Positions 1,826 through 11,524 of a DNA stretch of 58,527 nt are shown here, piece by piece. The notes under the pieces were generated by a model, which saw only the letters and a list, made by a program, of their open reading frames with translations, did no database searches and was not told the origin of the DNA. The DNA is from Spirochaetota bacterium. Its GTDB lineage: Bacteria > Spirochaetota > Spirochaetia > CADAEX01. The stretch's first letter is position 1. Every line of letters begins with the position of its first letter. The stretch is taken from positions 1 through 58,527 of the forward strand of contig WQTU01000135.1 of assembly GCA_009786125.1 (NCBI GenBank), given 5' to 3'. A program made the position numbers and the translations under genes.

Positions 1826-1943
1826 AATTTTTATAGTCTACATAAATTTGTATAAAAGGAAAGGTTTTTTAATCAATTCTTTTTTTACTATACTGCCTCG
1901 ATTATCAATTGAAGACAGGTCGTTTTTATTATAATCTTGATAT

Positions 1944-4454
1944 GTGAAAAAGCCTGAGATACTTTCTCCTGCAGGAGATATTGAATGCATTAAAGCAGCA
2001 TTTGCAGCAGGAGCTGATGCAATATATTTTGGACTTCCTTTTTTTAATGCAAGGCAAAGAGCAACAAATATTGAGCCCAAACAGCTTCCTCTTATTGTCT
2101 CGGAAGCAAAACTCAGAGGAATAAAGCTTTATCTTACATTGAATACGCTTATCACAGAAGAAGAAATTCCATCTCTTCTTGATGTTATTGATACTGCAAT
2201 GATCTCCGGAGTAACAGATTTCATAATACAGGATATGGGGATTCTTTATATTCTAAAAAAAACTTACCCTATGGCAAAAATCCATATCTCAACCCAGGCA
2301 ACAACACATACAAAAGGGCAGATACTATTTCTTTCCAAATGCAATGTAGAAAGAGTAAATCTTGCAAGGGAACTCTCTCTTGCAGAAATAAAAGAACTTA
2401 CAGATATTGCGCATAAAAATAATATGGAAACAGAAGTTTTTGTTCATGGCTCACTCTGCATCTCCTTTTCCGGGCAGTGCTACTTATGTTCTTTTCTCGA
2501 AGGCTGCTCCGGCAACAGAGGGCTGTGTCAACAAAATTGCAGAAGACTTTATAAAAAAGCAAACAAAAAAAAATATTTCTTAAATCTGAAAGATAACAGT
2601 GCGCTGGAATATTCATCGCAGCTTATGGCTGCAGGAGTTGATTCTCTTAAAATCGAAGGCAGAATTAAAGGTCCGGCTTATGTCTATTCTGTAGTTAAAG
2701 GGTGGAAAACAATTCTGGAAAATAACAACCAGACCACGGCAGCAGGCGAGGCAGCTTTGCTTTTTGGCGGAGTCTTTAACAGGCTCTTTACAGCCGGATA
2801 CCTTGAAAGTGCTGTAAGTTATGATATGCTTTCAGAGATTCCCGCAGACCGCTCTCTCAAGAAGATTGCAGAAGTTATATCTTACAGCGCAGATAACTTC
2901 TTGCTTGAAAGCAGCCATATGTTTAAATCTGATCTTCTCTCCGAAATTATAATCAAAGACATTCATGATAATTTTATATGTGCAGCTATAGCAGAAAAAA
3001 CAGTTGGCAGTAACGATGGAAGAAGAGGCGAGCAAAAGAAACCAGAAAAGAGTTTTTTCTATAAAATAAAAATAACAGGCAAGCTGGAAGGAAAAATAAA
3101 AAAAGGGAATGCAATATTTGCCCAGAGACCTGCGCTTGAAGCAGGTGAATTGGAAAAAATGATTAACAGTGTCGTTTTCAGAAAAATCCCTCTAACTGCA
3201 GAAATATATGCAGAAGCAGACAAAGAGTTTAAGCTTAAACTCTTTGCGCAAAAAAATCTCTCCGCAGAAGAAAGCAGCGGAACTTATGAGTCCGAAAAAC
3301 CGATCTCTTTATCAATAAAAAATTCTACTTCAAAAGATGACATTTCAAAACAGCTTTCAAGATTTGGCAATACGCCATTTGAGCTTGAAAATATTGTTTT
3401 TAAAAATTGGGAAAACAATATTTTTATTCCTTCAAGTTTGATAAATATTGCCAGGAGAAAATGCACAGCAGAACTTTTGGGAACCATAGATTCGCCAAGA
3501 AAAGATATTTTCCTGGCGGCACATTGCCTTACCGGGCAAACGTTATGCGAAAACACTGTGTCAGCCAGCCAGCCCGGCGCAAAGCCGCGCAAGCTCTCTG
3601 TTTTTCTGGACAACATTACTATAGCAAAAGAACTAAAATCATTATATAAAGAAAAAATCGAAATAATATTAGAAATCAATGACCCAACCACAAATACCAA
3701 TATTGACAATAGCTTTACGCTCTTTTTCCCGGCAGTAATCGAATACAATGCAGAGGAAAAATACAAACAGCTTATAAAGAGTTGCAACAACAAAATTATT
3801 TTGAACAACACATCTTTTTTAGAAACTATATTAGATACTGGCAAAGAATGGATAGCCGGACCTTTTTTGAATATCACAAACAGTCTTGCAATAAAACTGT
3901 TCTCAGAAACAGCACGCTGCTCCGGCGCAATAGCTTCGCTTGAACTTTCGCTCGAACAAATAAAACTGTTAGCCGAAAAATCAGAATTGCCATTATCCTG
4001 CTTTATATATTCCGCAACAAAACTTATGACAACAAGGCAGTGCCTGCTTGAATACAAATGCGGGAAAAAAATATCAGATAGCACTTGTTATTATAATTGC
4101 TGCGGAGAAGATATTCTTGATGAAATTAACGGCAGAAGATTAAAAATATACAAAAGAAAATGGAATTTTACAGAACTATATGACAGCAGTTTTATTTTAA
4201 TTCCTGAGATTGTTCCTGCTCTAAAGAACAAAATATCAAACTTTATTATAGATTCAAGGGAATTTAGTTTTGCTGAACACGACCAGACAAAGGGCAGCGC
4301 AAGCCGGAAAACAATATCCGACTTGCGCTGGACTTTGCCCGAAATTACAGAACTTTTTATAATTTATCTGGAGAATCCAATCCCCGATAACAAAAATAAA
4401 ATTACAGAACTATTTAAAGCTACATCAAAGGGGAATATAAAAAAAGGAATTTAG
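1944..4454 (+). CDS. U32 family peptidase / tRNA or rRNA hydroxylation-type protein
   Basis: KPEILSPAGDIECIKAAFAAGADAIYFG, FVHGSLCISFSGQCYLCSFLEGCSGNRGLCQQNCRRLY; GTG start. Confidence 0.92.
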   Translation: MKKPEILSPAGDIECIKAAFAAGADAIYFGLPFFNARQRATNIEPKQLPLIVSEAKLRGIKLYLTLNTLITEEEIPSLLDVIDTAMISGVTDFIIQDMGILYILKKTYPMAKIHISTQATTHTKGQILFLSKCNVERVNLARELSLAEIKELTDIAHKNNMETEVFVHGSLCISFSGQCYLCSFLEGCSGNRGLCQQNCRRLYKKANKKKYFLNLKDNSALEYSSQLMAAGVDSLKIEGRIKGPAYVYSVVKGWKTILENNNQTTAAGEAALLFGGVFNRLFTAGYLESAVSYDMLSEIPADRSLKKIAEVISYSADNFLLESSHMFKSDLLSEIIIKDIHDNFICAAIAEKTVGSNDGRRGEQKKPEKSFFYKIKITGKLEGKIKKGNAIFAQRPALEAGELEKMINSVVFRKIPLTAEIYAEADKEFKLKLFAQKNLSAEESSGTYESEKPISLSIKNSTSKDDISKQLSRFGNTPFELENIVFKNWENNIFIPSSLINIARRKCTAELLGTIDSPRKDIFLAAHCLTGQTLCENTVSASQPGAKPRKLSVFLDNITIAKELKSLYKEKIEIILEINDPTTNTNIDNSFTLFFPAVIEYNAEEKYKQLIKSCNNKIILNNTSFLETILDTGKEWIAGPFLNITNSLAIKLFSETARCSGAIASLELSLEQIKLLAEKSELPLSCFIYSATKLMTTRQCLLEYKCGKKISDSTCYYNCCGEDILDEINGRRLKIYKRKWNFTELYDSSFILIPEIVPALKNKISNFIIDSREFSFAEHDQTKGSASRKTISDLRWTLPEITELFIIYLENPIPDNKNKITELFKATSKGNIKKGI
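4288..4337. repeat. Large imperfect palindrome inside the U32 peptidase CDS
   Basis: CAAAG-gg-CAGCGCAAG-c-CGG / 10-nt loop / CCG-a-CTTGCGCTG-ga-CTTTG. Confidence 0.85.
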
Positions 4455-7461: not shown

Positions 7462-8892
7462 TTATCTCCGTATTATTCTTACCCGTGAATCAAACGCCCT
7501 ATATCCAATATGAGTAACAGAATTGCCAATGGTTACACTTGTTAGTTGGTTTTCAAAAAACGCAAAATCTCCAATATGAGTAACAGAATTAGGAATTGTT
7601 ACGCTTGTAAGTTGGTTTCTCAAAAACGCACCCTCACCAATATGAGTAACAGAATTAGGAATTGTTACGCTTGTAAGTTGGTTCCAAGCAAACGCCCTAT
7701 TTCCAATATGAGTAACAGAATTAGGAATTGTTACTCGTGTAAGTTGGTTTTTCAAAAACGCAAAATCTCCAATATGAGTAACAGAATTAGGAATTGTTAC
7801 GCTTGTAAGTTGGTTCCAAGCAAACGCCTCCTCACCAATATGAGTAACAGAATTAGGAATTGTTACACTTGTTAGTTGGTTTCTATAAAACGCAAAATCT
7901 CCAATATGAGTAACAGAATTAGGAATTACTACACTTGTAAGTTCATTATCAGCAAACGCCCAAACTCCAATATGAGTAACAGAATTAGGAATTGTTACGC
8001 TTGTAAGTTGGTTTACAGCAAACGCCTCCTCACCAATATGAGTAACAGAATTAGGAATTGTTACGCTTGTAAGTTGGTTTCTCAAAAACGCAAAATCTCC
8101 AATATGAGTAACAGAATTGCCAATGGTTACACTTGTAAGCTGGTTTCTATAAAACGCACCCTCACCAATATGAGTAACAGAATTAGGAATTGTTACGCTT
8201 GTAAGTTGGTTTCTAAAAAACGCAAAATCTCCAATATGAGTAACAGAATTGCCAATGGTTACACTTGTAAGCTGGTTTCTATAAAACGCACTCTCACCAA
8301 TATGAGTAACAGAATTGCCAATGGTTACACTTGTAAGTTGGTTTCTATAAAACGCATCATCATCAATATGAGTAACAGAATTAGGAATTGTTACACTTGT
8401 TAGTTGGTTTTCATAAAACGCCCTATATCCAATATGAGTAACAGAATTGCCAATGGTTACGCTTGCAAGTTGGTTCCAAGCAAACGCCAAAGCTCCAATA
8501 TAAGTAACAGAATTAGGAATTGTTACGCTTGTAAGTTGGTTTCCAAGAAACGCAAAATCTCCAATATGAGTAACAGAATTAGGAATTGTTACTCGTGTAA
8601 GTTGGCTTCCAAAAAACGCAAAATCTCCAATATGAGTAACAGAATTAGGAATTGTTACGCTTGTAAGTTCATTATCAGCAAACGCACTACCCCCAATCGA
8701 GGTAACAAGTAGCCCCCGTATTCTGGGAGGAATACTGACTGCTCCTCCTTGTCCAGTATAACCAGTAATCCGTGCTGTGCCGTCTCCTAATAACTCAATT
8801 TGAAAATCAGTTTCATTGCTATATTGCTGCGCATACATCGATAAACTCACGAACAATACCAACACAAAACAACAAGTTATAATTCTGTTCAT
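7462..8892 (-). CDS. BspA-like leucine-rich repeat (LRR_5) surface/secreted protein
   Basis: Signal peptide MNRIITCCFVLVLFVSLSMYAQ; 18 repeats of NQLTSVTIPNSVTHIGxxAFxx. Confidence 0.93.
   Translation of the reverse strand: MNRIITCCFVLVLFVSLSMYAQQYSNETDFQIELLGDGTARITGYTGQGGAVSIPPRIRGLLVTSIGGSAFADNELTSVTIPNSVTHIGDFAFFGSQLTRVTIPNSVTHIGDFAFLGNQLTSVTIPNSVTYIGALAFAWNQLASVTIGNSVTHIGYRAFYENQLTSVTIPNSVTHIDDDAFYRNQLTSVTIGNSVTHIGESAFYRNQLTSVTIGNSVTHIGDFAFFRNQLTSVTIPNSVTHIGEGAFYRNQLTSVTIGNSVTHIGDFAFLRNQLTSVTIPNSVTHIGEEAFAVNQLTSVTIPNSVTHIGVWAFADNELTSVVIPNSVTHIGDFAFYRNQLTSVTIPNSVTHIGEEAFAWNQLTSVTIPNSVTHIGDFAFLKNQLTRVTIPNSVTHIGNRAFAWNQLTSVTIPNSVTHIGEGAFLRNQLTSVTIPNSVTHIGDFAFFENQLTSVTIGNSVTHIGYRAFDSRVRIIRR
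7490..8690 (-). repeat. About 18 tandem 66-bp repeats encoding LRR_5 units
   Basis: cgcaaaatct starts at 7561 and the next unit at 7627; 66-nt periodicity continues across the gene. Confidence 0.93.
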
Positions 8893-10010: not shown

Positions 10011-10331
10011 ATGATAAAACTAAGAACGATTCTCGCTGAAAATATCAAGTCCTATAGAACGGAAATGAAGTTATCTCAGATGAAATTGGCTGATCTAGTT
10101 GATACTGCTCCTAATTATATTGCTATGATTGAGGCTGGAAAACGTTTTCCATCAGATGTAATGCTCGAAAAGATAGCTTCCGCCCTTCATAGAGAGCCTT
10201 TCGAGTTATTTTCAGTATTACCAACACAGAAAAAGTGGCAGGTGGATTTATTGACCGAATTAGCGGATTTTATTGATGCAAAGTTACAAGAAGCCCAAAG
10301 AAAAAATTCTGCTAAACTAAAAAAATCTTAA
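10011..10331 (+). CDS. XRE-family HTH transcriptional regulator
   Basis: LRTILAENIKSYRTEMKLSQMKLADLVDTAPNYIAMIEAGKRFPSDVMLEKIASAL. Confidence 0.9.
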   Translation: MIKLRTILAENIKSYRTEMKLSQMKLADLVDTAPNYIAMIEAGKRFPSDVMLEKIASALHREPFELFSVLPTQKKWQVDLLTELADFIDAKLQEAQRKNSAKLKKS

Positions 10332-10370: not shown

Positions 10371-10399
10371 TTGCTTTTTTATAAAAATTGAATTATTAT
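10371..10399 (+). promoter_or_regulatory. Candidate sigma70 promoter for abi-associated small RNA
   Basis: TTGCTT (10371-10376), 17-nt spacer, TATTAT (10394-10399). Confidence 0.5.
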
Positions 10400-10405
10400 T
10401 AATTA

Positions 10406-10458
10406 ACAGGACTCCCCGCACCTCTTAACAATGTGTCCCATGGGGAGACGTCTTTTTT
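10406..10458 (+). ncRNA. Candidate structured antitoxin-type small RNA upstream of the Abi_2/AbiF-like gene
   Basis: ACAGGACTCCCCGCACCTCTTAACAATGTGTCCCATGGGGAGACGTCTTTTTT; CTCCCC/GGGGAG stem, possible CAC/GTG and GGAC/GTCC pairings, U-tract ending at the abi ATG. Confidence 0.65.
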
Positions 10459-11406
10459 ATGACAGATCAATTAAAACCAACAACAACTTATGACGAGCAA
10501 ATAGAAAAATTATGCGCTAGAGGTTGTCTTGTTAAAGACAAGATTTTTTGCAAAGAAATCTTATCAAGAATAAATTACTATCGTTTTACTGCCTATTTTC
10601 TTCCTTTCCGGAATAAAAATGATGACAATTATTTACCCGGAACAAATTTTGAAACTATTTATCAGATATATGAATTTGACAGGAATATGCGCAGTATTAT
10701 ATTTAAGGCAATAGAAGAAGTAGAGATATATTTGCGAGCAAAATTTGCTTATTATCATGCTCATAAATTTGGTGCAATGGGATACATTGACGAAGTGAAT
10801 TATAATACGTTTCACAAACATGATCAGTTTATAAAACGCATTGAAGAAGAGAAAGATAAAAATAAAAAAGTATTATTTGTAAAGCATCATATTGAAAAAT
10901 ACAATAACCAGTTTCCGATATGGGTAATTACTGAATTATTTTCATTTGGAATGCTCTCTTATTTTTATCATGATTTACATGCTATTGATCAAAAAAAACT
11001 GGCGAAAGAATTATTTAATACTAACCTGAAAAACTTAAAAAGCTGGCTCCGATGTTGTACTGATCTGCGTAATATTTGTGCCCACTATGGAAGGCTCTAT
11101 TTTAGAATATTTACAGCAATTCCATCAGGAATTCCGGAAATAGACGAAAAGTCTAATAGACGTTTATATGGAGCTATCCTTGCATTGAAAAAAATATATC
11201 CTGATGCTAATAAATGGAATAAAGAAATTTTTAATTCAATTTCTGATCTGCTTATTCAATATTCAAATGTTATTAATTTAAGGCATATTGGGTTCCCGGA
11301 TAATTGGCAAGAATCTTTGGAGAAACGCTCAAACAAACCTTTTAAACCAAAAATATCTCTTTTAGTGTCAATTTTGTGCGTGACAATCAAATCATTTACA
11401 GCATAA
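10459..11406 (+). CDS. Abi_2 family (AbiD/AbiF-like) HEPN-type abortive infection protein
   Basis: QIEKLCARGCLV...RINYYRFTAYFLPF; FDRNMRSIIFKAIEEVEIYLRAKFAYYHA; RNICAH (RNxxxH) HEPN motif. Confidence 0.9.
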   Translation: MTDQLKPTTTYDEQIEKLCARGCLVKDKIFCKEILSRINYYRFTAYFLPFRNKNDDNYLPGTNFETIYQIYEFDRNMRSIIFKAIEEVEIYLRAKFAYYHAHKFGAMGYIDEVNYNTFHKHDQFIKRIEEEKDKNKKVLFVKHHIEKYNNQFPIWVITELFSFGMLSYFYHDLHAIDQKKLAKELFNTNLKNLKSWLRCCTDLRNICAHYGRLYFRIFTAIPSGIPEIDEKSNRRLYGAILALKKIYPDANKWNKEIFNSISDLLIQYSNVINLRHIGFPDNWQESLEKRSNKPFKPKISLLVSILCVTIKSFTA

Positions 11407-11450: not shown

Positions 11451-11524
11451 TGGGCCCACTAGGACTTGAACCTAGGGCCACTTGATTATGAGTCAAGCGC
11501 TCTAACCAACTGAGCTATGAGCCC
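11451..11524 (-). tRNA. tRNA with CAU anticodon, most like tRNA-Ile2
   Basis: Cloverleaf GGGCTCATAGCTCAGTTGGTTAGAGCGCTTGACTCATAATCAAGTGGCCCTAGGTTCAAGTCCTAGTGGGCCCA; acceptor pairs; GACTCATAATC anticodon arm; no encoded CCA. Confidence 0.92.

Follow-up and report, generated by a model that had tools for sequence, protein, structure and literature searches.

AbiF-type proteins, the proposed ancestors of Cas13, form modules with a small structured RNA, abiF RNA, a kind of system characterized in 2025. In the AbiFCd/RCd22 pair of the Clostridioides difficile prophage phi027, AbiF is toxic and the RNA binds it directly and neutralizes it both in cis and in trans; changes at R202/H207 of AbiFCd abolish toxicity, and RCd22 shares a promoter with the AbiFCd gene, most transcription stopping between the two (PMC12373285). 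The PbAbiF-AbiFr ncRNA complex of Zilberzwige-Tal et al. 2025 (PDB ID: 8vz6) is described as containing one RNA per protein monomer (as presented in PMC12373285 and PMC12737573), and an R210/H215 double mutant of PbAbiF as inactive (as presented in PMC12373285). The window analyzed here, a stretch of 58,527 nucleotides from a spirochaete genome, carries a pair that adds to these modules. We consider it very probable (roughly 0.87) that the locus is a single-copy, type III-like AbiF toxin-antitoxin module that operates by the whole of the mechanism proposed below.

The abi gene (10459-11406, + strand, ATG at 10459) encodes a protein of 315 amino acids that matches PF07751 (Abi_2) at 2e-51, with 175.3 bits against a curated cut-off of 25.6, and is assigned by PADLOC to AbiD (2.5e-96, 320.6 bits); it is the only Abi_2 gene in the source genome. 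A sequence comparison with the PDB gives 8vz6, the complex of PbAbiF with its ncRNA, as the sole relative (2.6e-26), and 8vz6 is also the only fold match at E ≤ 0.001 (E 5.3e-13, TM 0.77; identity of ∼24% in the structural alignment) for an AlphaFold2 model with a pLDDT of 87.3 and a high-confidence fold to about residue 290. The HEPN-type RNICAH motif named in the original prediction occupies residues 204-209 (11068-11085, + strand), where R204 and H209 align with the catalytic R210 and H215 of PbAbiF, and R204, N205, A208 and H209 are invariant across 14 aligned Abi proteins. Residues 293-315 (11335-11403, + strand) form a C-terminal tail with pLDDT below 50 and no counterpart in homologs, which end near residue 289; this tail could alter activity. 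Abi is best described as an AbiF/AbiD-type HEPN protein with an intact catalytic motif and, by analogy with its characterized relatives, it would be a toxic RNase. Assignment to Cas13 or a CRISPR system was ruled out, as there is one HEPN motif in 315 residues, a single hairpin and no adjoining repeat array.

The region directly upstream reads ACAGGACUCCCC..., and from the RF03085 alignment and our model R1 (see below) we place a candidate abiF-type antitoxin RNA of about 54 nt, running from AACAG to a U-tract, at 10405-10458 (+ strand). The promoter that the original prediction had put ahead of it is present at 10371-10399 (+ strand), with a -35-like TTGCTT (10371-10376), a 17-nt spacer and a -10 TATTAT (10394-10399); the hexamers are weak, agreeing with the consensus at 8/12 positions, and a consensus promoter scan of the window did not call them. 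A -35/-10 pair ends 5 to 7 nt ahead of the conserved AACAG in all eight close relatives examined, and the constant spacing from -10 to AACAG suggests the position of the RNA 5' end. Two of the three pairings proposed for the RNA, an outer stem CUCCCC (10412-10417)/GGGGAG (10442-10447) and an inner stem CAC (10419-10421)/GUG (10433-10435) that encloses the near-invariant loop CUCUUAACAAU (10422-10432), coincide exactly with the two RF03085 helices, whereas the third, GGAC/GUCC, has no place in the family structure. A two-helix hairpin with the conserved CCUCUYAACRAUG loop thus sits upstream of abi on the same strand. A U6 tract (10453-10458, + strand), a candidate intrinsic terminator or attenuator, lies 3' of the hairpin and abuts the abi ATG, as had been described; a short-loop terminator scan did not call the hairpin and U6 tract. 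The minimum free energy of the single sequence is -12.5 kcal/mol (z -0.23), no better than shuffles, and with so weak a promoter and so unexceptional a fold the case would be unproven from the window sequence alone.

At its gathering threshold Rfam returned only tRNA and no abiF RNA. When 201 bases were searched permissively, the whole of RF03085 (1-37) aligned at 10412-10448 with 20.5 bits, under the gathering score of 37 used for formal listing; the E value of 0.17 spans 4227 families and is therefore small for one family named beforehand. The window RNA shares with RF03085 both helices, the 11-nt loop, the 37-nt length and the place ahead of an abi gene, and differs in its lower score and in a CUCCCC stem and a CAC/GUG inner stem, which are characteristic of the branch to which it belongs. 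We attribute the low score to the reach of the model, since most abi-linked relatives also fall under 37: among those searched, only L013 (43.2 bits) clears the gathering score, with L007, L005, L012, L010 and L021 lower. An RF03085 search of the source genome gave no match at E ≤ 0.001, which we put down to the same limited reach; the RNA is present as a single copy, both in the window and in the genome as a whole.

Covariation was assessed in an alignment (A2) of 15 abi-linked RNAs, window excluded, set in the family register; N was inserted in linkers one nucleotide short, and the register, being taken from the family structure, favors pairing, but the compensatory changes are independent of both choices. 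A MAFFT alignment in which loops of different length were mixed (A1) placed the 3' arms wrongly and was dropped in favor of A2. Standard pairs fill 99.3% of 135 pair cells, against 79.2% with the 3' letters shuffled, and eight of nine base pairs show changes on both sides. The covariation score of 0.656 (0.222 for shuffles) was reached by no shuffle and is destroyed by sliding the partners. Compensatory changes affect all six pairs of the outer stem (98.9% paired) and two of the three pairs of the inner stem (100% paired), and the loop core is conserved in hosts and phages. Model R1, built from A2 and so without the window, was run over the 58.5 kb and matched 10408-10449 with 54.6 bits (E 1e-12; next-best E 3.6). 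The window itself had no part in this test, but its branch did, through L029, L030 and L093 among the 15. The presence in unrelated genomes of the same hairpin ahead of homologous Abi genes, the compensatory changes and the R1 match together place this structure beyond chance. Identity with the published AbiF ncRNA class, which the original prediction had raised as unverified, is borne out by the full-length RF03085 alignment, the R1 match and the same RNA-gene order in homologs.

Among the upstream regions of about thirty Abi homologs, most contain the arrangement AACA, stem, CCUCUYAACRAUG, stem and U-tract, or a variant with a longer loop. Promoter position, hairpin, CCUCUYAACRAUG loop and abi gene are shared across spirochaetes, Clostridia, phages and plasmids, a U-tract following the hairpin in most relatives, and the conservation of the upstream region in close homologs is in keeping with the original prediction. 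The nearest Abi homolog (72% identical) is encoded at locus L003 of the congener G002, followed by those of Treponema sp. Emb289P1bin65 (62%) and of Clostridia (54-48%); the Abi protein is absent from genomes G001 and G003. The isolate names of relatives suggest, as we understand them, termite-gut samples. In G002, a counterpart of the window's tRNA-Met and 5-FTHF cyclo-ligase site lacks abi and the G002 abi gene is located elsewhere, which indicates that the module is mobile; it may have entered the window beside tRNA-Met(cat) (11451-11524, - strand), which lies directly downstream of abi. A BspA-type leucine-rich repeat protein (7462-8892, - strand; LRR_5 8e-136) is also encoded near the module.

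Several related loci depart from this arrangement. In the abiF RNA of the congener (L003, 1434-1488) the loop is enlarged and contains part of the loop sequence a second time (GCACCTCTGAAGATGCCAAGCACCTTTATGTG). At L049, near 1827-1850 (- strand), an abiF RNA is followed by a broken abi copy with early in-frame stop codons. At L059 an abiF-type RNA (3278-3322, - strand) with a good promoter precedes not an Abi protein but a SocA/Panacea-domain protein (2590-3300, - strand), possibly another partner or a replaced toxin.

The 3' arm of the outer stem, GGGGAG (10442-10447, + strand), is by direct reading also the only Shine-Dalgarno (SD)-like sequence of abi, 11 nt from the ATG, as the original prediction had it, and its predicted unpaired probability is 0.012. 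Both in the window and at L003, the U-tract runs right up to the start codon and no SD-like sequence exists apart from the stem GGGGAG, and the arrangement at L028 is similar, whereas the clostridial relatives L029, L030 and L106 have a separate SD sequence 3' of the U-tract. The proposal that folding occludes the SD sequence therefore fits the window, L003 and L028 but does not hold family-wide. As GGGGAG is buried in the stem, folding of the RNA in the window's branch would also hinder translation of read-through mRNA. This compact version of the module unites antitoxin hairpin, U-tract and SD-like sequence in one element. The AbiFCd-RCd22 pair (phi027/phage phiC2) resembles the window in having an Abi_2 protein with an RNxCAH motif, 40% identical to the window Abi in the case of phiC2, and an abiF-motif RNA directly upstream. 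RCd22, however, contains the abiF motif twice, together with a distinct terminator hairpin and an SD sequence of its own (PMC12373285), whereas the window has one motif, with the stem followed immediately by U-tract and start codon and a stem arm that doubles as the SD-like sequence.

The window has each structural requirement seen in AbiFCd/RCd22. In the cycle that we infer, one promoter would produce the short abiF hairpin RNA and abi, with most transcripts ending or being trimmed at the U-tract, so that RNA is in excess, and a minority reading through into abi. The RNA would bind an AbiF dimer through the conserved hairpin and loop and block the HEPN RNase; in the window's branch the hairpin would also sequester the sole SD-like sequence, leaving folded read-through mRNA poorly translated. 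A drop in RNA, for example upon phage shutdown of host transcription, would free AbiF to cut RNA and arrest the cell, stopping the phage. Binding, toxicity, neutralization, attenuation and the anti-phage role are ascribed by analogy with characterized relatives. The antitoxin RNA gene lies directly upstream of the toxin gene, an order conserved in relatives along with the shared promoter position. Tandem repeats of the antitoxin unit, a classical type III trait, are absent, with one copy in the window and genome, and PbAbiF also binds single RNA units; we therefore term the module type III-like rather than classical type III.

We considered whether the hairpin could act solely as a cis-acting leader, that is, as an attenuator and SD-sequestering 5' UTR with no protein binding in trans. 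The hairpin and U-tract right at the ATG, the burial of GGGGAG in the predicted fold and a prematurely terminated transcript upstream of abiD1, mentioned as a citation in PMC12373285, are all compatible with such a leader; however, conservation is highest in the loop, for which an attenuator has no need, the hairpin occurs without abi in many phages, and RCd22 is active in trans and is purified together with AbiF (PMC12373285), so that we hold this explanation to be unlikely. It is very unlikely that the module is a three-part unit controlled by the XRE-type regulator encoded at 10011-10331 (HTH_3 4.5e-10), despite the position of this gene on the same strand, ending 127 bp ahead of the abi start codon: the flanks of other module copies differ, the RNA has a promoter position of its own, and no such gene precedes the 72% homolog at L003, for which reason it was rejected as a fixed third part. 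The C-terminal tail, missing in homologs and predicted with very low confidence, could also be taken to mean that the module is degenerating, the conserved RNA being kept beside a non-functional protein, but with a full-length open frame, intact catalytic and core residues and a high-confidence fold over the remainder of the protein we find this highly improbable.

While the window locus, read as an AbiF toxin-antitoxin module, belongs to a known kind, abiF-type hairpins without a toxin in phages would be the part that surprises specialists. A 14-mer from the window RNA has matches in 77 viral contigs, of which only 11 have the complementary arm, and the idea that all these matches are abiF RNAs was rejected, most being matches by chance. 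L047, L081, L095 and L105, among those with the arm, have no abi gene behind the hairpin and no Abi_2 gene elsewhere on the record. The hairpins of L047 (2949-2989, - strand) and L081 (2757-2797, - strand) are nearly identical to the window RNA, with the same CUCCCC stem and loop, and by sequence appear to match the AbiF branch of the window. Both are surrounded by phage genes, and that of L047 sits between terminase and portal genes. Genomes of the window's class encode relatives of the L047 terminase (59% in one), beside which no hairpin was found. An attempt to assign the L105 phage to a host within the window's family failed. A second abiF-type hairpin of the window's genus (L447 8288-8328, G002:C62) lies at the end of a phage-like contig encoding a tail fibre and a DNA invertase.

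We scanned viral contigs with three family patterns in which the outer stem was wholly or almost wholly unspecified. Among the matches listed, perfect 6-bp outer stems occurred at 18/39, 44/69 and 22/77 distinct sites, compared with means of 1.7, 4.7 and 1.8 when the arms were dealt anew; also among the matches listed, there were 11 to 16 different arm sequences per pattern, and 51 of 68 fully paired sites lay outside any frame of 100 codons. R1 matched 84 and 66 loci at E ≤ 0.001 in two sets of 100 pattern-found viral loci, but the search pattern itself contributes to these scores, hence the importance of the arm test. Two hairpin copies are present on some contigs (L145, L173, L141 and L168), and the genes next to hairpins include those for terminase, portal, scaffold, major head protein, integrase and SSB. 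A PF07751 search of the whole records of 100 hairpin-bearing viruses, with known positives as controls, found an Abi_2 gene in five (L093, L106, L240, L256 and L146) and none in the other 95, many of which are fragments. Complete genomes of phage isolates are among the Abi-negative records, ten of which are deposited phage genomes: Aeromonas PZL-Ah8 and PT2, Salicola CGphi29, Rhizobium RHEph21 and Pasto, Mycobacterium Thibault, Lactobacillus Nyseid, Pseudanabaena Pan2, bajarodcaudo virus 5 and Enterococcus KEN09.

The clearest case comes from four Aeromonas T7-like phages (L425, L428, L457 and L458), which share the order ACTATAGGGA, taken here to be the core of a T7-type promoter, then immediately the hairpin, then the scaffold gene, with the connector on the other side. 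Their stems, ACCCGCC/GGCGGGT in PZL-Ah8, GCCCGAC/GTCGGGC in T7-Ah and PZL-Ah152 and ACCCGAC/GTCGGGT in PT2, show compensatory changes at two pairs within stretches that otherwise closely resemble one another. The related phages Mak and JELG-KS1 have a different sequence at the hairpin site and no R1 match, and whole-record searches of PZL-Ah8 and PT2 found no Abi protein. Selection thus seems to act on the hairpin structure in phages, and an origin of the phage hairpins as remnants or by chance was rejected on the basis of the arm-shuffle test and the compensatory changes among close phages.

We speculate, at somewhat better than even odds, that the Abi-free abiF hairpins, widespread in phages and present in complete genomes, act as natural decoy antitoxins that hold host AbiF down; the phage hairpin would be made during infection and would bind the host toxin. 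Such antitoxin mimicry is the simplest reading of the orphan hairpins by analogy with pseudo-ToxI of phage PhiTE, which is toxin-free (PMC3475682), and the RNA anti-CRISPRs (Racrs), which are cas-free (PMC10651486), both phage mimics of host defense RNAs; the orphan hairpins are like these as apparent mimics, but the RNA and toxin families differ. The orphan hairpins might instead be an RNA-processing or stability element, or might act in phage-phage conflicts. An abiF RNA has been reported in the lytic cyanophage S-CREM1, without a decoy reading (PMC9964418), so that the occurrence of abiF RNA in phages is partly known already; we found no description of toxin-free copies as decoys in the literature covered, which took in less than the full texts of Weinberg 2017 and Zilberzwige-Tal 2025.

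The AbiF/abiF-RNA system now extends to termite-gut-type spirochaetes. If the decoy reading of the phage hairpins is true, phages would meet AbiF often enough to keep an RNA countermeasure, and the hairpins would constitute a further family of RNA mimics beside pseudo-ToxI and Racrs and would offer a direct test of AbiF recognition.
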